This document shows positions 6,114 to 57,337 of a stretch of 57,337 nt of DNA, piece after piece. Source of the DNA: Blastopirellula sp. (GTDB lineage Bacteria; Planctomycetota; Planctomycetia; Pirellulales; Pirellulaceae); contig JAJTFE010000005.1 of the NCBI GenBank assembly GCA_021298375.1, positions 1-57,337 of the forward strand. The letters are read 5' to 3'. The position numbers and the translations under genes were made by a program. Numbering within the stretch: the stretch's first letter is position 1; each line of letters starts with the position of its first letter. The notes under the pieces were generated by a model. That model saw nothing but the letters and a program-made list of their open reading frames with translations, was not told where the DNA came from and did not search any database.

Positions 6114-8186
6114 ATGCCCTCTGTTCCCCCCTATCGCAATCCAGCCCAATTCAAAAAGCAAAAACAGAACAGCTCTTTACCAACCGGCGCGATTATCGGC
6201 GGTTTGCTCGGCATTTTGCTGCTGGGTGGTGGAGGCGCAGCCGCCTGGTTCCTCTTCCGCTCAGCACCTGAGAAGCAACGCGCGGAAGTCGCCAACGAGG
6301 TCGCCTCCACAGCGGAATCAACTACTCCATTCAAAGACGAGCCCGCTGCAGCCGCCAATGCCAGCGCCGCTCCACCGAAGAACCTTGGTTCGGATCACGC
6401 GGCAAGCTCAAGCGGCAAACCGAGCCCCTTTGAAAAACCGGGGACCGCGGAGCAGCTTCGCGCCCAGGTTAACGCGGCCTCAAAAGGTGGTCTCGGGCCA
6501 CTGCCAGCTCAACTCAAATCAGCGGGAATGCAACGCCTCTCGGATTCGGCTTCGGCAAGTCTTCAGTACCGGCTCCAGCCCAACGTTGATTATGGCGTCA
6601 GCTTTTCTGTTGAGTTGATTACGCCGACGGGAACCCAGGTAACAAAGGGGCGCACCGTTTATCGGCTGGTCGATGAAAACCCGCAGACGCTTCTGAACAG
6701 CAACGCCGGTGCGCTGGAGGAGGATTACGAGGCGGGGAACTCGACTGGAACCGGGTTTGCCATTCATCCCGATGGGCTGTTGGTGACCTGTGCTCATGTC
6801 GTCGAGGACGCTCATCAGCTGAGTGTGGTGATCAATGGCCGAGATATTCCCGGTCAGGTTGTGGCAATCGATTCGCAAAACGACTTGGCTCTGGTCCGAA
6901 TTGAATATGAATTCAAGCAGATCATCGGCCTGAATGATGAATTGCCTGAATTGGGAGTGACTTGCCGGGCGATTGGCTTTCCGCTGGCCGGCGACATGCT
7001 GGGGGAGAAAGTCAAGATGTCAACCGGCACGATTGTCGGCGACGACATTCGAATGAATGAACGCCGTTTGCAAATCGACGCAACCGTCAATCCCGGGAAC
7101 AGCGGTGGACCGGTGGTCGGTGACCATGGCGAACTTTTCGGCGTGGCCGACTCGATCATGGTCATGGAGCAGACGCAGGATGTTTCATTTGCAGTTCCGG
7201 TGGATGTCGTCGCCCGGATGCTGCAGCGGGCTCGAGCGCCGTATGCAACCAGTCATTTCGGGAAAGACGTCAACGACCCTCGGGTGGTCAAGACTTACAA
7301 GGATGCCACCAACTGCGCTTTTCTGATCAGGGTCAACAACAAGGCCAAAGGCCCCGAGCCCAAAGACTTGATGGTACTCTCATTCGACTGCGCAATGGAC
7401 GGCAATGGTTCGAAGCAATCACTGCAGCAGGGCCGTGTCGTCATCGACCGCTCGGGAAGGGTGTACTTCAGTTCGAATTCCCCCTCATTGCCGATGTTTC
7501 TCAACCGGGCCGGAACCATCGGTTTTGACCGTTATCCGGATGGACCCCAGACAAGTTGGAAATCGATCGATGCCTCCATGGTATCGGTCAACATTCCGAA
7601 TCGGGGCAATCAAGCCGATGACAACCCCTTTGGAATGCTCGGCACCGATGTCTTTTCCCCTGGCTTTCGCCGACCGGGCGGGGGGCTACCCGTCCCACCT
7701 TCTCGCCCTCCCGGCCCAGCGAGCGAAGTGCCTCAAGAAATGCTGGTCATGAAGATTCAGGCCTGCAAACTCGAAGGCGATCGCGACTCGACGACTGAAT
7801 TCGCCCTGATCGGCGCAGACCCCCTCCAGTCTGCGCCTCAACTGGTGGTCAATGGCAAAGGCAAGTCGACACTAGATCCCCAATCGGGTTTCGCAAAAAT
7901 GGCAACCATGAGCGGCGACTTCACCAGTGCCCTGGGAGGCCGCAGTCAGCGGGGACGACTGCGGATGACCTACGGCTATATGACCGAGGCTGAAATGAAA
8001 GCCGAAGAAGCCGCGGAAGCCGCACGACAACGGGAACTCGAAGCGAAAGCCAAAGCCGAGGCGGAGGCCCGCCGAATCGCCGCTGAAAAGGCGGAAGCCG
8101 AGCGACTCAAAAAATTGTCGGAAGAGGTCAAGCGACGAGACACCAAATTGACCAAGTCGCTCGACCAATTCGATCCTGACAAGTAA
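6114..8186 (+). CDS. Membrane-anchored trypsin-like serine protease
   Basis: A 690-residue protein with one N-terminal membrane helix at about residues 25-48, then an Ala/Pro-rich linker to about 190, then a trypsin-like (DegP/HtrA-type) domain. The catalytic triad is H228 in TCAHVVEDA, D257 in SQNDLALVRI and S330 in NPGNSGGPVV. No PDZ domain follows. Instead there are about 200 residues of unassigned beta-rich sequence and a highly charged Ala/Glu/Lys coiled coil at about 620-690. The anchor places the protease outside the cytoplasm. The next gene, 72 bp downstream, encodes a secreted protein and may be co-transcribed. Substrate unknown. Confidence 0.85.
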   Translation: MPSVPPYRNPAQFKKQKQNSSLPTGAIIGGLLGILLLGGGGAAAWFLFRSAPEKQRAEVANEVASTAESTTPFKDEPAAAANASAAPPKNLGSDHAASSSGKPSPFEKPGTAEQLRAQVNAASKGGLGPLPAQLKSAGMQRLSDSASASLQYRLQPNVDYGVSFSVELITPTGTQVTKGRTVYRLVDENPQTLLNSNAGALEEDYEAGNSTGTGFAIHPDGLLVTCAHVVEDAHQLSVVINGRDIPGQVVAIDSQNDLALVRIEYEFKQIIGLNDELPELGVTCRAIGFPLAGDMLGEKVKMSTGTIVGDDIRMNERRLQIDATVNPGNSGGPVVGDHGELFGVADSIMVMEQTQDVSFAVPVDVVARMLQRARAPYATSHFGKDVNDPRVVKTYKDATNCAFLIRVNNKAKGPEPKDLMVLSFDCAMDGNGSKQSLQQGRVVIDRSGRVYFSSNSPSLPMFLNRAGTIGFDRYPDGPQTSWKSIDASMVSVNIPNRGNQADDNPFGMLGTDVFSPGFRRPGGGLPVPPSRPPGPASEVPQEMLVMKIQACKLEGDRDSTTEFALIGADPLQSAPQLVVNGKGKSTLDPQSGFAKMATMSGDFTSALGGRSQRGRLRMTYGYMTEAEMKAEEAAEAARQRELEAKAKAEAEARRIAAEKAEAERLKKLSEEVKRRDTKLTKSLDQFDPDK

Positions 8187-8258
8187 ACGCCGCTTCCCCC
8201 TCCTCGCGACTTTCGGACCGCGACGCCAACTCAACTTGCCTTCTTGGGACACCAATCC

Positions 8259-9440
8259 ATGCTCCCGTTCAAAGCCTACCGAACTGGTCTCGCCTCAGTC
8301 TTCATCCTGCTGTTTGCCGGAAACCCTGGACCCGCCACTGCGCAGTACTCCGGCCCTCCGAAAATCGTTCAGCGGGAACGCAACGACTTTGTTGGCGCGA
8401 AATGGGCTTTGGCCCGGCGCGGGAACCTGCTGATTACCTCCTCCCGCGAGGGTACCGAGGCCCATGTCTGGAGCGGCGGCAAATTCAACTCTGTCAACCG
8501 GAGTATCGACAAGCCAGCCAACGATTTCGTTCACTTCGCCAGCGAGGCCGACTTGCTGCTGATCGGTTCCTCCGCCGGAATCGCCCAACATCAGCGACTG
8601 ATGAAGGGCAAGGCACCTTTGCCGGGACTAACTCCACCTGCCGATGCGATGTTTCCGGGGGATGTCCCCGAGTCGATGAGAAAGTCGATGGAAAAGGCTC
8701 TCAAGTCGCGCCCCTCGGCGAAAAAGGACCCGCTCGAACTCCGGATGTTTGCCAACCCCGATAAGACGACACTCCGCCGATTCGGCTCAATTGAACTGCA
8801 GCCGACAACAAATTGGCTGACCGTCGCAGGAGACGCAACGAAAGTCGTCTTGTATGACGGCGGAGCGAATACTCTGGAAATCGTCCGTGTCGCAGAGGGC
8901 TTCAATACACCATCCCAGCGCTGGAAGGATGTGCTCTATCCAACGCAACTTCACGACATGACCCTTTCTGCCAAAGGAGGGCATTTGTTGGTGGCTCAGG
9001 AGTTGCGGCTCTCCCTGATCGATACTGATTCGGGAACACTGATTCAAGCCATGCCGATTCCGGAGAACTGGCGACAACTGCGATTCTCCTACGGCGGAAG
9101 GTATCTCGTTGCCAAGCAAATTTCCGAAGACCAAGTTTCCGAAAACAAGGCTACGGCGATCGTCATGGAGGTCACCTCTGGCCGTATTCTCGAATTCCCA
9201 ATCGACGCTGCTGACCTGGTGCACGTGACGCCCGACGGCCAATGGCTGGTTCGAATCAACTCCAGCGAACTGGAGTTTACGAAACTGGCCAACCGGAATG
9301 AGAAGTACTCCGAACTGCTGCACGATGATTGCAATCGGAATTGCGATATCGTGTTTGCCGCGGATGCCGGAAGGGCTGTCATTTGGTCCGACGAACCGGC
9401 TCGAATCTATGTCGCCCAGTTCCCCTTCAACTCCAAGTGA
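8259..9440 (+). CDS. Secreted protein, possible beta-propeller, unknown function
   Basis: A 393-residue protein with an N-terminal signal peptide ending near PATAQ (about residue 30). Start chosen at the ATG at 8259, which gives a compact signal peptide; an ATG at 8244 in the same frame is possible. The body has repeated short strands with patterns such as GGRYLVAKQ, GGHLLVAQELRLSLID and TPDGQWLVRI, resembling WD40/PQQ-type propeller blades in which a value is looked up and compared. I see no catalytic residues. It follows the membrane protease closely and on the same strand, so a shared envelope role is plausible but unproven. Confidence 0.65.
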   Translation: MLPFKAYRTGLASVFILLFAGNPGPATAQYSGPPKIVQRERNDFVGAKWALARRGNLLITSSREGTEAHVWSGGKFNSVNRSIDKPANDFVHFASEADLLLIGSSAGIAQHQRLMKGKAPLPGLTPPADAMFPGDVPESMRKSMEKALKSRPSAKKDPLELRMFANPDKTTLRRFGSIELQPTTNWLTVAGDATKVVLYDGGANTLEIVRVAEGFNTPSQRWKDVLYPTQLHDMTLSAKGGHLLVAQELRLSLIDTDSGTLIQAMPIPENWRQLRFSYGGRYLVAKQISEDQVSENKATAIVMEVTSGRILEFPIDAADLVHVTPDGQWLVRINSSELEFTKLANRNEKYSELLHDDCNRNCDIVFAADAGRAVIWSDEPARIYVAQFPFNSK

Positions 9441-9665
9441 TGCCCTTTGGTGCAGGCCCATCACTTTTTCAAGCCTTGCTCAACTCCCTGGTTTGCTGCC
9501 GGAATATGTGCCCCCGGAGTCCCCGGTCGGCTCCATCCATTTTGCCCGAGCCATTTTGCCGGGGCCGTGTAGAATGGCAGACAGAACGAAAACCGCTGCG
9601 CCCCATCAATTGGACCTCAACTCCATGGGGGCAGACCACGCCCCCGCTCACTTCCGAGATCTCAA

Positions 9666-10439
9666 ATGTTCTTTCCGATCAGCGATGACGACCGGCATAT
9701 TGACTCGCCCGCCTGGGTTACCTGGACTTTGCTCGCCCTCAACATTCTGCTGTTTCTTGTCCAAGTCTCCAATCCGGACTTCACGTATGGCTGGAGCGTG
9801 ATTCCCAAAGAGATCACCACGGGAGTGGACATCACGACGCCGCAATCGGTTTCGATTCCCGGGGAAGGGACGGTCGAGATTCCGCAAGCTCCCGGGCCGC
9901 CGATTATCTGGCTGACACTGCTCAGTTCGATGTTCATGCATGGCGGCATCGGTCACCTCGCCGGGAACATGCTCTACCTGTGGATCTTCGGCAACAATGT
10001 CGAGCACCGCTTCGGGCATCTCTGGTTTCTGATTTTCTATCTCGCCGCCGGTCTGGTCGGGAGCATCGCCCAAGTGCTGCTGATCCCCGAAAGCATAATC
10101 CCCAACCTCGGCGCCTCCGGCGCCATCGCCGGCGTGATGGGCGCCTACCTCGTGCTCTTTCCTCGCAACCGCGTCAACGCCGTCTTCCTTTACCACATCG
10201 TCGCGGTCCCCGCGCTGGTCGTGCTGGGGATGTGGATCGTGATGCAACTGTTCAGCACCGTCGGCTCGATTGCCTCCACGTCCGTGGAAAGCGGCGGCGT
10301 GGCCTACCTGGCGCACGTCGGAGGCTTTCTCGCCGGCGTGCTCGCCGCCCTCCCCTACCGGCTCAGCCTGCAAGCCGAACCCGACTCGATGCTGCGGCGG
10401 CAGTATGCCCGCGACCCGGATGCCAAGAGGTTGTGGTAA
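9666..10439 (+). CDS. Rhomboid family intramembrane serine protease
   Basis: A 257-residue membrane protein that would cut other membrane proteins within or near the bilayer. The catalytic dyad is S151 in NLGASGAIAG and H217 in HVGGFLAG; N101 in GHLAGNMLYLWIFG is the oxyanion-side Asn. About six membrane helices are visible, with a longer loop (about 40-75) between helix 1 and the conserved core. This architecture, with the short N-terminus and loop 1 insert, is common in planctomycetes and actinobacteria. It ends 220 bp before the convergent trxA gene. A second, GlpG-like rhomboid is at 41907-42917. Confidence 0.9.
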   Translation: MFFPISDDDRHIDSPAWVTWTLLALNILLFLVQVSNPDFTYGWSVIPKEITTGVDITTPQSVSIPGEGTVEIPQAPGPPIIWLTLLSSMFMHGGIGHLAGNMLYLWIFGNNVEHRFGHLWFLIFYLAAGLVGSIAQVLLIPESIIPNLGASGAIAGVMGAYLVLFPRNRVNAVFLYHIVAVPALVVLGMWIVMQLFSTVGSIASTSVESGGVAYLAHVGGFLAGVLAALPYRLSLQAEPDSMLRRQYARDPDAKRLW

Positions 10440-14857: not shown

Positions 14858-17800
14858 TTATTGGTCTGACTCCTCGCCGCCCGCGTCGAGTTCCCCTTCC
14901 AGTTCCTGCACCTCCTCCTCCGAAACAAAGTGGCTGGAGGCCGCCGCATCCGCTCCGAAATCGAGGTCGGCAGTCGCCGTGTTGGCTGAACCGCTGCCCG
15001 ATTCCAGCAAGGGGAAGCTTGCTTCCAGGGTTTGGCTGGGAGCCGCCGAAATCTGCCGCATCGCCTCGAGGTTGTACTGAATTTCGGAGTCTTGGAAGGT
15101 ACGGAAGCCCGTTCCAGCCGGAATCAAGTGCCCGAGGATGACGTTCTCCTTCAGCCCGACCAAGTGATCGACCTTGCCAGCCAACGCCGCCTCAGTCAAG
15201 ACTTTCGTCGTCTCCTGGAAGCTGGCCGCCGAGATGAAGCTGCTGCTTTGTACCGACGCCTTGGTGATCCCGAGCAACTGGGCCTTGGACTCTGCCGACT
15301 TGGGCTTGGTCCCCTTGGCAATCTTTCCACCAGCAGCCTCGATCTTGGCGTTCTCTTCCTCAATGTGCGACTTGAGGACAATTGCGCCCTTCTCGAACGA
15401 ACTGTCGCCCGCGTCAGTGATCTTCAGGCACTTCTCCAGTTCCTCGTTGACGCGACGCAAATCAAAGCGATCGAGCACCATCCCGGCGAGGAGATTGGTG
15501 TCACCAGGCTTCTCAACCTTCACCTTGCGGAGCATGCGGGCCACGATCACTTCAATGTGCTTGTCGTTGATCTCCACCCGCTGGCTGCGGTAGACCTGCT
15601 GAACTTCCTGCAGCAGGTAACGCTGCACTTCTTCCTCACCCGAAACGTCGAGGATGTCGTGGGGGACCAGCGGCCCGTCGACCAATTGCTGGCCAGCGGT
15701 GACGTAGTCGCCCGAGTGAACGCGGAACCGCTTGCCTGGCGGCACAAGGTGCTCGCGCTCCAAGCCAGCTTCTTCATTGCGCACGATAATCGTCCGCTTG
15801 TTTCGCTTCTTCTCGTTCTTGATCTCGACAATCCCGTCGATTTCCGAAAGGACTGCGGGGTCCTTTGGCTTGCGAGCCTCAAAAATCTCGGTCACCCGCG
15901 GCAAACCACCGGTGATATCCGAAACACCACCCGCTTCGCGAGGCGTTTCAGCCACCGCCGCACCGGCGGAGATCTGGTCACCTTCCTGAACGATGATGTG
16001 AGCCCGTTCCGGGAGGTAGTAAACGTCCAGGGTCTTGCCCGACTCGTCCTCGATCACGATTTGTGGATGCAGGTCGCCGCGGAAGTCGATAATCGATCGT
16101 CGGAGCGTTCCGCTGGAGTCCCGCTCTTCCTTCATTGTCTCGCCTTCCACCACGTCTTCGTAGCGAACTCGGCCGGAGACTTCCGAAAGCACAGGGATGG
16201 CGTGTGGATTCCACTGGCAAAGCACCGAGTTGGGCTCGACCGTCTGGTCTTCCTTCACCAGCAGGACGGCACCGGCCGGCACCTTGTGGTTTTCCAACTC
16301 GCGACCGCGCGGGTCGATAATCGAAATCTCACCGGTCCGGTTCAAGACGACGCTGTCGCCCTTGTCGTTGGTGACATAGCGCATCCGGGTCAGCTTGACG
16401 ATACCTGACTTCTTGCAGCGCTTCTCATTTTCTTCCGCAACCCGACCAGCCACACCACCGAAGTGGAACGTTCGCATGGTCAGCTGCGTACCGGGCTCGC
16501 CGATACTTTGGGCTGCAATGATGCCAACGGCCATGCCTTCTTCGACCATCGCCCCGGTGGACATGTCCATGCCGTAGCAGAGTTGGCAGACGCCGAGCGC
16601 CGCTTCGCAGGTCATCGGACTGCGGACCTGGATCTTTTCCAGACCCATTTCCTCAATCTTGCGGGCCTGCTCCAGCGTGATCATCTCGTTTTCCTTGACG
16701 ATCTGCTCATCCGTAATCGGATTGACAATGCTGTGCCGGGAAACGCGTCCATTGATCGCGGTTGCAAGTCGAACTTCGACCTGCTCACCGCGATAGATCA
16801 CCCCCTTGGTGATGCCGCGCGAAGTGCCGCAATCCTTGCAGGTGACGACGACGTTCTGGGCAACGTCCGCCAACTTGCGGGTCAAGTAACCCGAGTCGGC
16901 TGTCTTCAACGCCGTATCGGCCAAACCCTTGCGGGCCCCGTGCGTCGAGCTGAAGTACTCCAGCACCGTCAAGCCTTCGCGGAAGTTCGCCTTGATCGGG
17001 GTCTCGATGATCTCGCCGGTTGGCTTGGCCATCAAACCACGCATTCCGGCCAGCTGCCGAATCTGCTCGACACCACCGCGGGCGCCGGAGTGAGCCATCA
17101 AGAACACGGGGTTGACGTAGCCGCCGACGCGATCGTCGTGCTCCATCGCCTTCATCATGTTCTTGGTGATCTGTTCCCGGGCGTGCGTCCAGGTCTCCAG
17201 CACCTTGTTGTAACGCTCCTGCTCGGTGATCGCTCCGCGCTCGAAGTGCTTCCGCAACTTGAGCACTTCCTTCTCGGCCTCACCAATAAACTGGGTCTTG
17301 GTGTCCGGCGTAACCAAGTCATCGGTCGCAAACGACAGACCGCTGCGGGTACTTTCGCGGAACCCGAGCTGGTTCATGTCATCGAGCAACTTGATCGTCG
17401 CCCGGCGTCCAAGTACCTGGTAGCAGTCGGAAATCACGACGGAAAGGTCGCTGCTCTTGAGGTTGTGATTGTAATAGTCCATTCCCTGCGGCAGCATCTG
17501 ATTGAACAGAATCCGCCCGTAGGAAGTCGTGATGATCCGGCTTTCGGATCGTTCGTCTTCGTTCAGCCGAACCTTGCGGCCTTCGGGGAGGCGAACGCGA
17601 ATCTTGGCGTGCATCGTGATTACGTGCTGGGCGTAGGCCATCTCGGCCTCGGCAAACGACGCAAACGTCATCCCCTCGCCTTTTTGCCCCGGCAGTACCA
17701 GGGAGATGTAATAGCAACCCATCACCGTGTCCTGCGAAGGACTCATGATCGGCTTGCCATTGGACGGCGCGAAGATGTTATTGGTCGACATCATCAGCGT

Positions 17801-49697: not shown

Positions 49698-50161
49698 GAG
49701 TGGCAACATGGAATCAGCTCGGGAAAATTGTACGGCCGCGCCAGCCTCAAGAAAACGTTCGGCGGCGGGACTGGCGGCGGCAAGGCGGTGGCCCCCGCGT
49801 CGAAACGTGCCGCCACTGGAGAGAACGGGGCTCAGCGAAAATGGGAACCGAGCAGACTCCGGCTCTCAGCCTGGCGCTGCCGAACCCTGAAAGGCCGACT
49901 CCAGAGGCGCCGAGTCCAAAAACCTCGCAGAACCGGTCCTGACCGTACAGGTTAGGTTATTTTCCTCGACGAACTGGCCAATTTGGTCCGCTTTTGCCCC
50001 GGCCCGAGTGCCGGTCCCTGCGTGTTGTGCCGCCGGCCAAGCGCCGCCAACAAGGATGCCCGGGATAGCCCCCCCTACCCTAACACGCTCCGCGGCACAA
50101 ACGCTACATCCGACAAAACAGAAATGTCGGATACAGCACTGCCCTTTCTCCCAATCGTGAC

Positions 50162-50195
50162 AAAAAAAGCCCGACTGACTTTCGTCAATCAGGCT
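50162..50195 (-). terminator. Rho-independent terminator after nrdB
   Basis: On the minus strand AGCCTGATTGAC, loop GAAA and GTCAGTCGGGCT form a 12-bp stem with two G-U pairs (50168-50195), then seven T. It is about 100 bp past the nrdB stop. Confidence 0.85.
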
Positions 50196-50295
50196 TCTTA
50201 ATTCAAAGCTTGGTTTGAGATTTGTTCGGGATACCAAGTTCTCCGGTGGCCAATGGCTCACCCCACTCGCTCTCGGTGAACTTGAGCGGACTGAA

Positions 50296-51372
<1,077 letters not shown>

Positions 51373-51703
51373 AGTTCGCTCCATCGAAGAAAAAGGCGAA
51401 TAAGGTCGGAAGTAGTCGGAAGGAAAATCGAGGCAATCCAAGCGGCCTGCTGAGGCCACAAGCGGCTGAGCCACCCGGCCTCACCCCCAGTCATTGAGGG
51501 CGGCAGAGGTTGCTCACCGAACGATGCCGGCTTCTCGGTGCTGGCTCTCTCGCAGCATAACCGAAAACCGAACTGCCGAGTCACCGCGTGCCTCGATAAA
51601 AAGCCCACGTGCCCCGGTAAAAATCAAAGCAAATCCCGGGCTGGAAGTGAGATCGTTCAGCCAATCGCAATCCAACCCGAACCAGCCAGACACCTCAGGT
51701 GGC

Positions 51704-51723
51704 GAACCCGGTTTCCCGGGTTC
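51704..51723 (-). other. RNA hairpin with GAAA tetraloop in nrdA-nrdB spacer
   Basis: On the minus strand an 8-bp perfect stem GAACCCGG/CCGGGTTC closes a GAAA loop (GNRA type). No U tract follows, so it is not a standard terminator; it could stabilise or process the mRNA between the two genes. Confidence 0.55.
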
Positions 51724-51786
51724 GGTCACTCTGCCAGTGCGAGCATGCTGTTTACATCCACCACGTTCCCGACCGCGCAGGTCACG

Positions 51787-51838
51787 GTGAAATTCTCGCG
51801 TGAAATTCTCGCGTGAAATTCTCCCGTGAAATTTATTC
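51787..51838. repeat. 13-bp tandem repeat, 4 copies
   Basis: GTGAAATTCTCGC at 51787 and 51800, with one change at 51813 and a diverged copy at 51826. Confidence 0.9.
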
Positions 51839-51889
51839 GTTTGCGAGACAACCTCGCGGCCGGTTGCGTTCAGCTGCCGAGTCGGGAGC

Positions 51890-54579
51890 TTACTGGCAAG
51901 CCTCGCAAGTGGGATCATCCAGACTGCAAGCCTTCACTTGCGAGGCCGGCAGATCCGATCCGCGATTGATCGTCACATCACCCGAGGCGCTGCGGTTTTT
52001 CATCCACCGCGGCTGTACCCCGAACTTGTTGATGTCAACCGTCGACTTTTCCACGTTGGTCGCGCCCAACGTGCGGAGATAATAAGTCGTCTTCAAACCG
52101 GCTTGCCAAGCCAACTGGTACATGTCGTCCAACCGCCGTCCACTGGGCTGAGCCAGGTAGAGGTTCAGCGATTGGCCCATGTCGATCCATTTCTGGCGAC
52201 GGCTGGCGCACTCGATCAGCCACTTTGGCTCGATCTCAAACGAGGTCGCATAGCGGTCTTTGATGTCCTGAGGCAATCCCGGAATCTCGCCGAGGACTCC
52301 GTCAAAGTACTTGATCGCTTCCAGCAGGTCTTTGCACCACAATCCCCGCTCTTTCAACTCAGTCACGAGGTTGATGTTCAACTGCACAAACTCTCCGGAA
52401 AGGTTGCTCTTGACGAAGAGGTGCTTGTACATCGGTTCGATCGATTGGGTCACACCGATGATGGTTGAAATCGTCGCGGTGGGAGCGATGGCCATCACGT
52501 TGCTGTTCCGCATTCCGTGCTGGCGCAGATGCTCCCGCACCGGGGTCCAGTCCATCGAAGCGGACGTATCCATGTCGACCGACATCCCGCGTTCCTGCTC
52601 CAGCAGGCGGACGGTATCGATCGGCAACAGACCGCGGTCCCACTTCGAGCCGCGGTAGCTGGAGTAGGTCCCGCGTTCCTTGGCCAGTTCACTGGAGGCC
52701 AGAATCGCAAAGTAGGAAATCGCTTCCATGCTGCGGTCGGCAAATTCCACCGCCGCCTTGCTTGCATAGCTGATCCCACAGGCTGCGAGAGCATCCTGGA
52801 AACCCATCAAACCGAGGCCAACCGGTCGATGACGGAGATTGGAGTTCCGCGCCTCGGCAGTCGGATAGAAATTGATGTCGATCACATTGTCGAGCATCCG
52901 GACAGCTGTCCGAACCGTTTCTTCCAGCTTCTTCAGATCGAGTTGCCCATCCTTGACATGGTTGAGCATGTTAATCGAGCCGAGGTTGCAGACCGCTGTC
53001 TCATCTGCCGAGGTATTCAAAAGAATCTCGGTGCAGAGATTGCTGCTGTGGACCACCCCGCAGTGATCCTGGGGCGAGCGAATGTTCGATGGATCCTTGA
53101 AGGTGATCCAGGGATGCCCTGTCTCGAACACTCGGGTAAGCATCTTTCGCCACAAGTCCCTTGCTTCCAGCGTCCGGGAGAGCTTGATCCGTCCCGCCGC
53201 GGCTTCGGCCTCATAGAACTTGTAACGCTGCTCAAAAGCCTTGCCGTAGAGATCGTGCAGGTCGGGAACTTCGTCGGGACTGAACAAGGTCCACGGCCCG
53301 CCCTCCACAACCCGCTTCATGAACAGGTCAGGAATCCAGTTCGCGGTGTGCATGTCGTGGGTCCGGCGACGGTCGTCGCCCGTGTTCTTCCGCAAGTCGA
53401 GAAACTCCTCGACGTCGAGGTGCCAGGACTCGAGATAAGAGCAAACCGCGCCCTTTCGCTTGCCGCCCTGATTGACCGCCACGGCCGTGTCACTGACGAC
53501 CTTGAGGAACGGAATCACGCCCTGACTTTGACCGTCAGCAGGTTGTAGAACTCGATTGCCCGCGAGGTCTTTTGCTCGCCCTCGTTCAGCGCCAAGCCCA
53601 TCGCGACCCGCATCCAGAAGTACTGGGGGGCTTCGAACCGGCGTCCGTCAATGTGCAGCAGGTAGCGGTCATAAATCGTCTGCAGGCCGAGGTACGGGAA
53701 CAACTCGTCCCGCTCAGGCACGATCGCGTCAGCCAACCGCTCCAAATCAAATTTCCGCAGTTCCGGGGCCAGCCGCTCGGCCGCGATCCCCTGCTCGATG
53801 TAGTTTCCAAACATGTCCCGATAACGCTCGGCAACATGATTTTCGTTGGCTGACTTGTCCAGCGATTCGCGGTAGATGATGTTCAGAATCAACCGGCTGG
53901 CGACGCGATCGTAAGAGGGGTCTTCTTCAATCTTGGCCCGAGCCGCAAGAACCATCGCCCGGCTGATTTCCTTGGTCGTGATTCCGTTGAAAAACTGCTT
54001 TTCAACCTCTTCAAACAGCAGCGGCGCCTCGGCCGCTACGCTCAACCCTTCACAGGCCGTGTCGACCTGCCGGCGAAGCCGATCAAAATCGAGCCCTTCC
54101 AGTCGTCCTTCAGCGGAGACCATGATCGCCGGGAACGGTTCGGCACTCTCCATCCGCTCTTCAGCCCGCAGCTGTCGAATCTTGGCGTGCTCGGCGCGGT
54201 ACAGAATATAACGGCGTGCGACCGAGAAAAACTCGTTCCGCATCAACTCGTTTTCGACCCAGTCCTGAACCTGTTCAACGCCCACCACACTTCCCTGACG
54301 GCCGGATTGATCGACCGAGGAAACAACCTCCTGCGTCATCATCTCGATTTTCTGCAGCAAGGCATCGTCCAGCAGGGAAATTTCAGCCAATCCGCGGTCG
54401 GCACAGAATGCCTTGGCCATTGCCCGTACGATCAAAGCCTGTTCAAACGGAACAACTCGGCCGTCCCGCTTTCGCACCACCAAATCGACGCCGACCAGCG
54501 AACCACCCGGAATTCCCGAGTTCCCGGCTACCTCGCAGTTGGCCCCGTCCTGAACCTTGCTGTCTCTCGTGTGATCCAT
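51890..54579 (-). CDS. nrdA: Ribonucleotide reductase alpha subunit, internally deleted in this sequence
   Basis: The large subunit of class I ribonucleotide reductase. An N-terminal ATP-cone ([16 protein letters not shown]) leads to EFYNLLT near 53530, where the frame ends at 53515. The C-terminal part resumes in another frame with [18 protein letters not shown] and runs to 51890. It keeps NLCTEI (radical Cys), [23 protein letters not shown] and the tail [11 protein letters not shown]. Compared with typical R1, about 70 residues between FYNLL and GQSQG are absent, including the first redox cysteine (SSC). So this is a frame-shifting deletion of roughly 210 bases, not a point error. Start is the ATG at 54579 with a GGGGTGG site. 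Confidence 0.9.
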
Positions 54580-55343
54580 TCGACATCCACCCCTATTTTT
54601 CAATTAATCGCAAAACCCGCGACCTCATCCCAAACAACCCGTTCAACCGTCGAACATCCAGCCAGAGAAAAATCGCCTCGCAACCGATCCCGCCGACTGG
54701 GACCTGACCAAAAACCGGGGCTCCCAAACTCGAGGGACACGCTGCTCCGTCGAGCCGGCTTCGTCACCCCAATCTCAAACTCGCCCCAAGCCTTTGATTC
54801 CGCTCTGAACTGGAGGCAACACCAAAACGGTCCCACCTGACCCTCGTCACAAGTCGCTCTTCAAAGAGGCCCTGTTCCCAGCGGAGTTGTGTTCAACCAA
54901 TGCTTTCTCGGCTACCGGGAAGACACCTTTGGTCCGACTTGAAAGATGACGACGACAGGGCCGCCCAAATGGCTCAAGCCTCCCTGCTCATCAACCTCCT
55001 CAAATCAACCTGCGTCTTCCAGAACGCCGTGCTCAGCTTTAAATTCCTGGCTCTCGCTTCCCTTGCTCCGGGTTTCGCGGCAAGTTGCCCGCGAACCCCT
55101 GCCTCTCGTTGCCGACTGGCAGACCCCTCATTCAGGTGCCCATTCGAGGCAACCTTGACGTCCAGCCAGCCCTCGGCCGCGGCCCCCGGCTTATTCCTCC
55201 AACCCGGCCCGGTCCGATCCATTTCGAGGCAGCTTAACGCCCTTCGAACCCACCACCAGAACGGCTCTTTCCGGGAGTCAAAACTGACGCCTCGAGGAAC
55301 GCCACCCGATGAAGGTCCCTTCACCCTGTCTGATGAGGTGGGA

Positions 55344-55390
55344 GCCCAATATATCGACGCCAAGTGCTTTGTCAACACAATATTTAGTGC
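55344..55390 (-). promoter_or_regulatory. nrdA promoter with two NrdR-like boxes
   Basis: On the minus strand TTGACA (55370-55375) and TATATT (55348-55353) are 16 bp apart. Box 1 (plus strand ACACAATATTTAGTGC, 55375-55390) touches the -35. Box 2 (GCCCAATATATCGACG, 55344-55359), a weaker match, covers the -10. Corresponding bases are exactly 31 bp apart, the usual spacing of NrdR box pairs, in which the repressor binds both boxes when dATP is high. Confidence 0.7.
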
Positions 55391-55680
55391 TTGCACTCTC
55401 ATCGACTTTTGCGGGAATTCCCTCCATTTTTTTCGAAAAATCGGTGAATTTTGCCCCACCCCAACTCCGCTTCCCCGGCTCCCAAAAATCGAGTTCTGCC
55501 TCCCTTTTCCGAGCCTTGAAAAGTTGTAAAAAAAACCGACTCAACCAGAAAAAATCCCCCCAAAAGAGCGGCTGCTTCCGATTCGTGCAGGAACGCTGGG
55601 AATCGCGGGATCCCAAGCGGCGCCCCCGCCTCAACCCGACCCGCCAGCCGCGTTCGGATCGGCCTCGCAGCGGGCAGCCT

Positions 55681-55706
55681 CGGTGCCGTGCCTCGGTGCC
55701 GTGCCT
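55681..55706. repeat. 13-bp tandem repeat, 2 copies plus a fragment
   Basis: CGGTGCCGTGCCT at 55681-55693 and 55694-55706, just before the chosen start of the next gene. Confidence 0.85.
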
Positions 55707-55708
55707 CA

Positions 55709-56635
55709 ATGCCATCTTCAATCCCCCACGGTTCACGCCTCGCTCCCGCTCCCTGGACCACAGCTGATCTCGCCAAACCGCCGCCGTATGAGCTAATCTG
55801 GGAAGCCGTGCTCGCCCAGCGTTGCCCAGGCCAAGCCAAGGGTTCCCCTAAACCGCATGATTTGACCACCGTGACCGCCAAACTCATCCAAGTCCTGACC
55901 AGTCGCCGCTTTTCGGAAGCGGACCGCCAAGGCCGCTTCCACCAGGTGCTCAGCGAACTGCAAGAAGCGACACCCAACCTGCGGGAGCCAAATTTCAAGC
56001 GGCTCGCCGAACCGGAACTCGAGTTTTTGTACCGCGCGATCGATCGACATTTCCTCGATTCGACCATCGCCAAAGCGATCGCCGCGGGACAGCATTCGCT
56101 CTCTTTTCGCATCTCTCGCCGGATGACCTCCACCGGTGGCTGTACCACGTCCCGCTTCCACCCCAAACACGGCCAGGGGACTTTTCAAATTGCGATCGCC
56201 GCTCAACTCCTCGCCCAGACCTGGGCCAACCGCGAGCAGGCAACCGTTTGCGGCGTCACCTGCCACGACATGCGCGAGGGACTTTGCCGCATCATGGAGC
56301 ACGAACTGCTGCACCTTTGCGAAATGCTCGTCTGGAAGGACTCCAGCTGCGCTCAAAGCCGTTTCAAAAGCATGGCCCAGCGACTCTTCGGCCACCGGGC
56401 CTCCAAGCACCATCTCCTGACCAATCGCGAAGCGGCCGCTTTGCAACACAACCTTCGCCCCGGCGATCGCGTCTGTTTCCCTTTCGAGGGACAACAACTT
56501 CTGGGAACGATCAATCGAATTCACAAACGAGCCACCGTGCTCGTACCCGATACTCGAGGGCAAGCCTATTCCGATGGCTCGCGGTACCTCAAGTACTATG
56601 TCCCGCTGCGGAACCTCGTCAAATGGCCCGGCTGA
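55709..56635 (+). CDS. SprT-like zinc metalloprotease domain protein with C-terminal SH3-like domain
   Basis: A 308-residue protein. The zinc-protease motif HELLH is in RIMEHELLHLCEML, and RRMTSTGGCTTSR upstream fits the SprT/Spartan family core. The family in eukaryotes cuts DNA-protein crosslinks; bacterial members are mostly uncharacterised. The C-terminal 55 residues (LRPGDRVCFPFEGQQLLGTI, KRATVLVPDTRGQAYSD) look like a small SH3/KOW-type beta domain, which could bind DNA or RNA. The start is uncertain: the ATG at 55709 sits at the end of a tandem repeat, and a GTG at 55808 is an alternative. No signal peptide or membrane helix. Confidence 0.75.
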   Translation: MPSSIPHGSRLAPAPWTTADLAKPPPYELIWEAVLAQRCPGQAKGSPKPHDLTTVTAKLIQVLTSRRFSEADRQGRFHQVLSELQEATPNLREPNFKRLAEPELEFLYRAIDRHFLDSTIAKAIAAGQHSLSFRISRRMTSTGGCTTSRFHPKHGQGTFQIAIAAQLLAQTWANREQATVCGVTCHDMREGLCRIMEHELLHLCEMLVWKDSSCAQSRFKSMAQRLFGHRASKHHLLTNREAAALQHNLRPGDRVCFPFEGQQLLGTINRIHKRATVLVPDTRGQAYSDGSRYLKYYVPLRNLVKWPG

Positions 56636-56912
56636 TCCGACACGCCAGTGCTTCCCCAATCCCACCCTTCAGTCGCAAACTCCGCTGGAACCATCCGCTG
56701 GTAACAGCCGCTTGACTGGCGTGCGAGAGCCAAGGGTGAAGTTGCCGGATCGGGAAAGGTCAAGTCCCTGCCTCGAGCGCCCTGTGCCTCGGGGGCAGCC
56801 GCGACGCTCCCAGTCCCCTGCCGCCTCGGTTCACCAGCAAACGACGTGCGCAGGCCTACAGCCGCAAACGCGTCGGCCGATCGACTCTGCGCTCTCCCGC
56901 TGTTTTTCCGCT

Positions 56913-56960
56913 CCCGGCGGCGCAAAACCCCGGCGGCGCAAAACCCCGGCGGCGCAAAAA
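56913..56960. repeat. 16-bp tandem repeat, 3 copies
   Basis: CCCGGCGGCGCAAAAC exact at 56913 and 56929, with a third copy at 56945 that runs into an A tract. Confidence 0.9.
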
Positions 56961-56993
56961 AAACACCGTGGAGCCTATGCAAGCTCCACGGTG
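56956..56993 (-). terminator. Rho-independent terminator of the right-edge gene
   Basis: On the minus strand CACCGTGGAGC pairs perfectly with GCTCCACGGTG over an 8-base loop, followed by eight T. The T tract is the A run that ends the 16-bp repeat. Confidence 0.9.
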
Positions 56994-57046
56994 CGTTTGA
57001 TCGCAATGCAGTTCAAGGAAGCTGGGAATTCAACCCAGCCAGCAGC

Positions 57047-57337
57047 CTAGCTCGCTGGCGAAACGGGTGGTGGCTCGTTGTTGTCAAAATCGATGTTGTC
57101 AAACAACGAGGTAAGAATCCAGCCCAACACGGCCAGCCGGCCAAGTCCAGCCAAACCGCCCGCGCCGCCGTAGCCGCCGCCGCCGCAACCACCACCGCCA
57201 CAGTAGCCGCCCCAATCTCCGGTCGCGCCACAGCAACCACCAGCGGCAGCACCACAGGCGATGTCGTTGCCAACCATCGGGCCCGCATAAGCATCGACCA
57301 CCGGGGCACCCGGAGTGCACGCATCACAGGCCGTGCT
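57047..57337 (-). CDS. Gly/Cys-rich protein, partial at the right edge
   Basis: The minus-strand frame is open to the window end, so only the C-terminal 96 residues are seen; an internal GTG at 57301 could also start it. The sequence is rich in Gly and Cys (ACGAAAGGCCGATGDW, GGYCGGGGCGGGGYGG), then has a hydrophobic stretch (LAGLGRLAVLGWILTSLF) and an acidic, Pro-rich tail. The first part resembles a flexible, possibly secreted or surface low-complexity segment, and the hydrophobic part could be one membrane helix. No family recognised. A strong terminator follows about 50 bp after the stop. Confidence 0.6.
   Translation of the reverse strand, partial: STACDACTPGAPVVDAYAGPMVGNDIACGAAAGGCCGATGDWGGYCGGGGCGGGGYGGAGGLAGLGRLAVLGWILTSLFDNIDFDNNEPPPVSPAS

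Follow-up and report, generated by a model that had tools for sequence, protein, structure and literature searches.

A putative two-input nrdAB leader in Pirellulaceae: a conserved NrdR promoter and an internal DNA-damage-type element

The class Ic-type nrdAB genes of this Blastopirellula sp. are probably served by two control elements, an NrdR promoter (P1) and an internal, damage-activated element (P2) for which a WYL protein would be the regulator. We analysed a stretch of 57,337 nucleotides (hereafter the window), which belongs to a 78%-complete MAG, together with nrdA loci of family members and others gathered by protein search. A pair of NrdR-type boxes, the promoter that they frame, the conservation of both, an nrdR gene, a second leader element and the presence of this element at repair genes as well were found computationally.

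According to the model that we propose, P1 is a sigma-70-type promoter (TTGACA-16-TATATT, with a start near 55341) that would transcribe nrdAB and has an NrdR box at either end, the distance between the two boxes being three helical turns. In its dATP/ATP-loaded form, NrdR would bind the box pair and block P1 when deoxynucleotides are plentiful. A GACC-N4-GTGTC box and a -10-like hexamer 12 nt downstream of it would constitute the internal promoter P2, located between P1 and nrdA and activated upon DNA damage by a conserved DriD-like WYL protein. The basal dNTP supply would be set by NrdR and raised for repair by the damage factor, and the leader would be long because this second regulatory element sits between P1 and nrdA. 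Wired in this way, DNA precursor supply appears to follow the nucleotide level as well as damage to DNA.

The NrdR box pair and promoter P1

The preliminary description of this DNA placed two NrdR-like boxes, in a 31-bp register, on a TTGACA-16-TATATT promoter of the minus strand, and the coordinates confirm this layout. The minus strand from 55390 to 55344 reads GCACTAAATATTGTGTTGACAAAGCACTTGGCGTCGATATATTGGGC and comprises the following features:

55375..55390, minus strand: NrdR box 1, GCACTAAATATTGTGT; 15/16 against the consensus, unique in the genome, conserved in relatives
55370..55375, minus strand: -35 hexamer of P1, TTGACA; TTGAC is kept across 64 loci
55344..55359, minus strand: NrdR box 2, CGTCGATATATTGGGC; spans the -10 at a distance of 31 bp to box 1, conserved in relatives
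55348..55353, minus strand: -10 hexamer of P1, TATATT; 16-bp spacer to the -35, kept in relatives

The promoter is directed toward nrdAB, and corresponding bases of the two boxes lie exactly 31 bp apart. Box 1 had been said to abut the -35 hexamer; it does adjoin it, and one base (55375) is common to both. With 15 of 16 positions matching the NrdR consensus, box 1 is the best NrdR-like 16-mer of the 57-kb window, the next best reaching 12/16, while box 2 scores 10/16. When the window was simulated 300 times with a first-order Markov model, no box pair as good as this one appeared. Across the 3.6-Mb genome, the box 1 core CACWAWATNTWGTG finds its sole mismatch-free match at the nrdA promoter, the NrdR boxes elsewhere being only a one-mismatch background about equal to the control; the box 2 sequence CGATATATTGGG has no second exact match.

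Two checks that the preliminary description had proposed, for an nrdR gene in the genome and for the boxes in relatives, gave positive answers. An intact nrdR gene is present (G000:C85:8583-9017), whose product matches TIGR00244 above cut-off (2.1e-57) and carries both Pfam domains, the Zn ribbon and the ATP-cone. The box pair and the promoter precede nrdA in each of the 47 nearest leaders examined, which are related sequences and hence not independent, and the 31-bp register is maintained in nearly all of them; the embedded promoter is kept in 64 loci in total. In these relatives box 1 is A+T-rich, ends with TTGTGT or a close variant and runs into TTGAC, while box 2 is CGATATATTG or a close variant and covers the -10. 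In more distant genera (L015, L018, L121-L134), we observed an extra pair of NrdR boxes, spaced by 31-32 bp, that is closer to nrdA than the distal promoter pair.

NrdR boxes are commonly separated by a 15-16-bp spacer (PMC12051234), and the 15-bp spacer of the window (31-bp register) falls within this norm for NrdR on an RNR promoter. The arrangement resembles the NrdR promoters of E. coli nrdHIEF and Listeria nrdAB (PMC12051234), in which two near-palindromic boxes with a 15-bp spacer (31-bp register) overlap the -35 and -10; here too nrdAB lies downstream and nrdR is in the genome. Unlike these systems, the planctomycete operon is class Ic, and its leader measures about 760 nt (300-800 in relatives), whereas in the pneumococcal examples the start codon lies 53-68 bp from the proximal box (PMC12051234). 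Taken together, the match to the consensus, the register and the conservation support the NrdR interpretation of the box pair, from which we infer NrdR binding. NrdR control of nrdAB is expected biology here; its family-wide conservation is newly documented for a class Ic RNR of Planctomycetota.

The nrdA and nrdB genes

Downstream of the leader, the following coding regions were identified:

53515..54579, minus strand: 5' part of nrdA (two ATP-cone stretches and an all-alpha domain); frame broken at 53515
51890..53518, minus strand: 3' part of nrdA (barrel domain); lacks about 230 nt that relatives have, the SSCYL segment among them
50296..51474, minus strand: nrdB, class Ic type; 1.1e-178 to C. 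trachomatis-type R2 (4d8f, 1syy)

The preliminary description regarded these genes as class Ic-like, and NrdB bears this out: its best alignment is to the class Ic R2 chains of Chlamydia trachomatis (4d8f/1syy), and a Phe replaces the radical Tyr at the position which, from established knowledge, we take to be that of the radical residue. The sequence comparison therefore supports assignment of NrdB to the class Ic type. The start of nrdA is most likely the ATG at 54579. Around 53500-53530 of the window, the stretch absent from nrdA contains a segment that carries SSCYL and a conserved Cys, and the frame is shifted; in relatives the gene is a single open frame of about 916-998 aa. This break is either an assembly error or a real inactivation of the sole class I large subunit found. 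With a broken nrdA and a possibly weak internal element, the present strain or assembly is not ideal for testing, and Mariniblastus relatives are better.

A second element in the nrdA leader

54580..55341, minus strand: nrdA leader of about 760 nt, without a conserved ORF or an Rfam match
54922..54934, minus strand: DNA-damage-type element GACCAAAGGTGTC (GAC-N7-GTC); in 31/47 leaders and, genome-wide, before repair genes
54904..54909, minus strand: site of the internal element's -10-like hexamer; GAGAAA in this genome, without the final T that relatives usually have

The leader had been described as about 750 nt long and free of genes, which agrees with the roughly 760 nt that we measure from about 55341 to the ATG at 54579. 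Its length had also been considered unusual; this view does not hold, as leaders of family relatives span about 300-800 nt and long leaders are the rule. The longer ORFs of the window leader have no Pfam match. A conserved small ORF was considered and rejected, the leaders giving neither a convincing protein match to each other nor a Pfam match, and a known structured RNA was likewise rejected for the window leader, which has no Rfam match (one sub-threshold match lies elsewhere). When the window leader was compared with those of its relatives by blastn, mainly two islands were recovered, namely the promoter end and the GAC-N7-GTC element; the leaders of the clade are otherwise unalignable. 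As to the claim that nrdAB is under NrdR through a distant promoter, the NrdR promoter is supported, while a lone distant promoter probably does not explain everything, because the leaders here carry a second element that is common to recA.

The element was scored as the 13-mer pattern GACC-NRA-S-GTGTC and counted at 10 bits or more. It is present on the sense strand of 31 of the 47 leaders (related, and therefore not independent, sequences), as against none on the antisense strand, none in the reversed sequence and 0.45 expected from shuffles; the other 16 have no clear GAC-N7-GTC box. The motif xAnnnT occurs at exactly N12 downstream in 24 of the 31 box-bearing nrdA leaders, compared with a background of 6%, while nearly all other offsets give 0-4 occurrences and N9 gives 9. 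The window's own copy, about 340 nt from the ATG, combines a perfect box with a weak -10-like hexamer (GAGAAA); the internal element may be weak in this genome.

A cobalamin riboswitch in outgroup leaders

In the outgroups, an RF00174 cobalamin riboswitch (55-113 bits) lies between the promoter and nrdA. It was detected in 21 leaders, 20 of which come from genomes with the B12-dependent nrdJ; 28 of the 40 tested leaders lacking it come from genomes without a detected nrdJ (Fisher p = 6e-7 for the association, phylogeny ignored). Positions 50000-57337 of the window gave no match to the RF00174 covariance model at E<=1, and nrdJ was not found in the 78%-complete genome of the window. These data fit an ancestral leader with NrdR and a riboswitch, the latter having been lost from, or never present in, the window's clade. 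In genus g6, the nrdA leaders L014 and L120 contain AGTGGAAACGAAAGCTGTCA and other stretches that by eye recall a cobalamin riboswitch and have no Rfam match; possibly, these are decayed riboswitches in genomes without nrdJ. The nrdABS operon of Streptomyces, reportedly described by Borovok et al., is said to have a cobalamin riboswitch plus NrdR. Several outgroup loci are similar in that NrdR-like boxes are combined with RF00174 in the leader of nrdA and the genome usually has nrdJ as well, whereas the window's clade differs in having no riboswitch.

Occurrence of the element before recA and other repair genes

The GACC-N4-GTGTC pattern has 9 sites in the window's genome and 0 when reversed. 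Over 12 genomes the figures are 81 and 19, 12 of the 19 reversed sites being in a single genome, G001. In the window's genome, the genes behind the sites encode RecA, ImuA followed by an ImuB-like protein, an AddB-like nuclease and an SbcD-like exonuclease (L188, L189, L186, L192). In relatives, SSB, Rad50/RecF-like ATPases, DNA methylases and Cas3-like helicases are added to this list; some sites have no obvious repair neighbour. Inspection of the recA loci (L242-L271) revealed the box in the scanned upstream stretch in 25 of 30 genomes, with 0 and 0 in the controls, and three of the five recA genes without it show a degraded copy of similar layout. The recA box of the window's genome (C217:8502) precedes the RecA match at 9434 by 0.9 kb and falls just beyond the scanned range. 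At the recA of G041, the sole genome from another family, the box was not found. The box GACCNNNNGTGTC-N12-xAnnnT preceding recA, imuAB, addB-like and sbcD-like genes would hence define a candidate DNA-damage regulon of Pirellulaceae. As a separate observation, a damage-type box in G001 (L198:2213-3983) precedes a gene for an ECF sigma factor, after which comes a second ORF, of 370 aa.

The candidate regulator and alternative explanations

DriD is an ssDNA-activated WYL regulator of Caulobacter whose site is ATACGAC-N7-GTCGTAT; DriD sites overlap the -35, their distance to the weak -10 elements is constant, and recA is among the targets (PMC12340889). The GAC-N7-GTC core of our element equals the core of this activator site. 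A WYL protein is encoded in 15 of the 15 genomes tested, and its ~336-aa form displays 58-71% identity to that of the window's genome across nine other genomes. The protein (L226-L237; MARNEQLIRQHKILQILERVRFGKT...) has a wHTH-WYL-WCX layout in which the WYL and WCX domains were found and the HTH scored only below cut-off. The nearest solved structures are the DriD entries (E 5e-15), ahead of PafC; its DNA-binding domain has no sequence match to DriD, the similarity being limited to the WYL/WCX part. Site similarity, co-occurrence and this partial likeness point to the WYL protein as the putative regulator of the box, through which P2 would become active upon damage.

The resemblance to the DriD regulon of Caulobacter crescentus (PMC12340889, PMC4211646) thus extends to the GAC-N7-GTC core, the overlap with the -35, the fixed distance to a weak -10, recA as a target and a WYL/WCX protein. 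The differences are that here the arms of the site diverge, the site is asymmetric (GACC...GTGTC), the repair regulon includes nrdAB and the regulator is putative. The system is also akin to mycobacterial PafBC / RecA-NDp (PMC6789036, PMC11804915), a WYL-controlled, non-palindromic promoter element before repair genes. PafBC is a heterodimer, whereas a single WYL gene is seen here, with more similarity to DriD than to PafC. In the RecA-NDp consensus, TTGTCRGTG-N8-TANNNT, TTGTC is likewise separated from the -10 by 12 nt.

The lexA gene was detected in 11 of the 15 genomes; no match was obtained in G001, G002, G092 and G146 (84-96% complete), all of which bear the box. In the window's genome, lexA (15175-15765) and imuAB (~7200-10200) are on the same contig (G000:C246), where a damage-type box occurs only at imuAB.

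Several other explanations were weighed against the two-input model. A chance resemblance of the box pair to NrdR sites on an ordinary promoter could be argued from the modest 10/16 score of box 2 taken by itself; since the simulated windows never produced such a pair and the nearest leaders display the same pair and spacing, this has practically no probability left. More credible, though still unlikely, is that only the NrdR promoter matters, the leader being neutral intergenic DNA that remained once an ancestral cobalamin riboswitch had been lost; the GACC-N4-GTGTC box would then have no role at nrdA. The presence of RF00174 at the same place in outgroups, its link with nrdJ (20/21) and the origin of most riboswitch-less tested leaders from genomes without nrdJ all speak for such a history, as do the leaders that cannot be aligned apart from the islands and the poor -10-like hexamer of the window's own copy. 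Yet neutral drift would erase a 13-mer that is retained in 31/47 leaders on a fixed strand with a positioned -10-like hexamer. As for an action at the RNA level, in which a small hairpin (nGAC...GTCn) of the nrdA transcript would control translation or stability, the flanks are able to extend the GAC/GTC stem in several leaders. However, their pairing (68%, 54% and 51%) is near the chance expectation (59%, 39% and 44%), on which ground we rejected the hairpin reading of the 13-mer, and the same element precedes many unrelated repair genes with the -10-like hexamer at a fixed distance; we therefore hold this explanation to be very improbable.

The leader element could also be a LexA operator, which would make nrdAB part of a classical SOS regulon based on a LexA box not described so far. 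The content of the regulon is indeed SOS-like, lexA shares its contig with imuAB in the window's genome, and the frequency of lexA (11/15) would allow a role for LexA in some of these bacteria. On the other hand, the four genomes without detectable lexA carry the box, which in G001, G002 and G146 is also found at recA, and on the contig that carries lexA in the window's genome the box is at imuA and not at lexA. The lexA gene is usually self-regulated. The lack of lexA in four box-bearing genomes and the lack of a box at lexA in the window's genome argue against LexA as the general regulator, and we consider this reading improbable, slightly more so than that of a neutral leader.

Returning to the WYL protein, we give about even chances to a broader proposal, namely that a LexA-independent, DriD-type WYL regulon is a main DNA-damage response of Pirellulaceae, comprising recA, imuAB, ssb, addB-like and sbcD-like genes as well as, unusually, nrdAB, the last through an internal promoter placed behind the NrdR promoter at the position of the outgroups' B12 riboswitch. 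In the literature that we searched, no DNA-damage operator of Planctomycetota was described; what is new is a damage-type box that recA and nrdAB have in common across the family, with lexA undetected in some members. If the proposal is true, the regulator-site pair is open to direct testing, DriD-type regulation is extended far beyond Caulobacter, and lineages can differ in what an RNR leader contains, a B12 riboswitch in one case and a damage-responsive element in the other. A two-input RNR leader with a damage-type box common to recA, in a planctomycete family, is worth experimental follow-up. Finally, small stand-alone WYL-domain ORFs (80-142 aa) were observed directly behind the box in three genomes (L202:2097-2525, L216:2656-2913 and L233:2532-2774).
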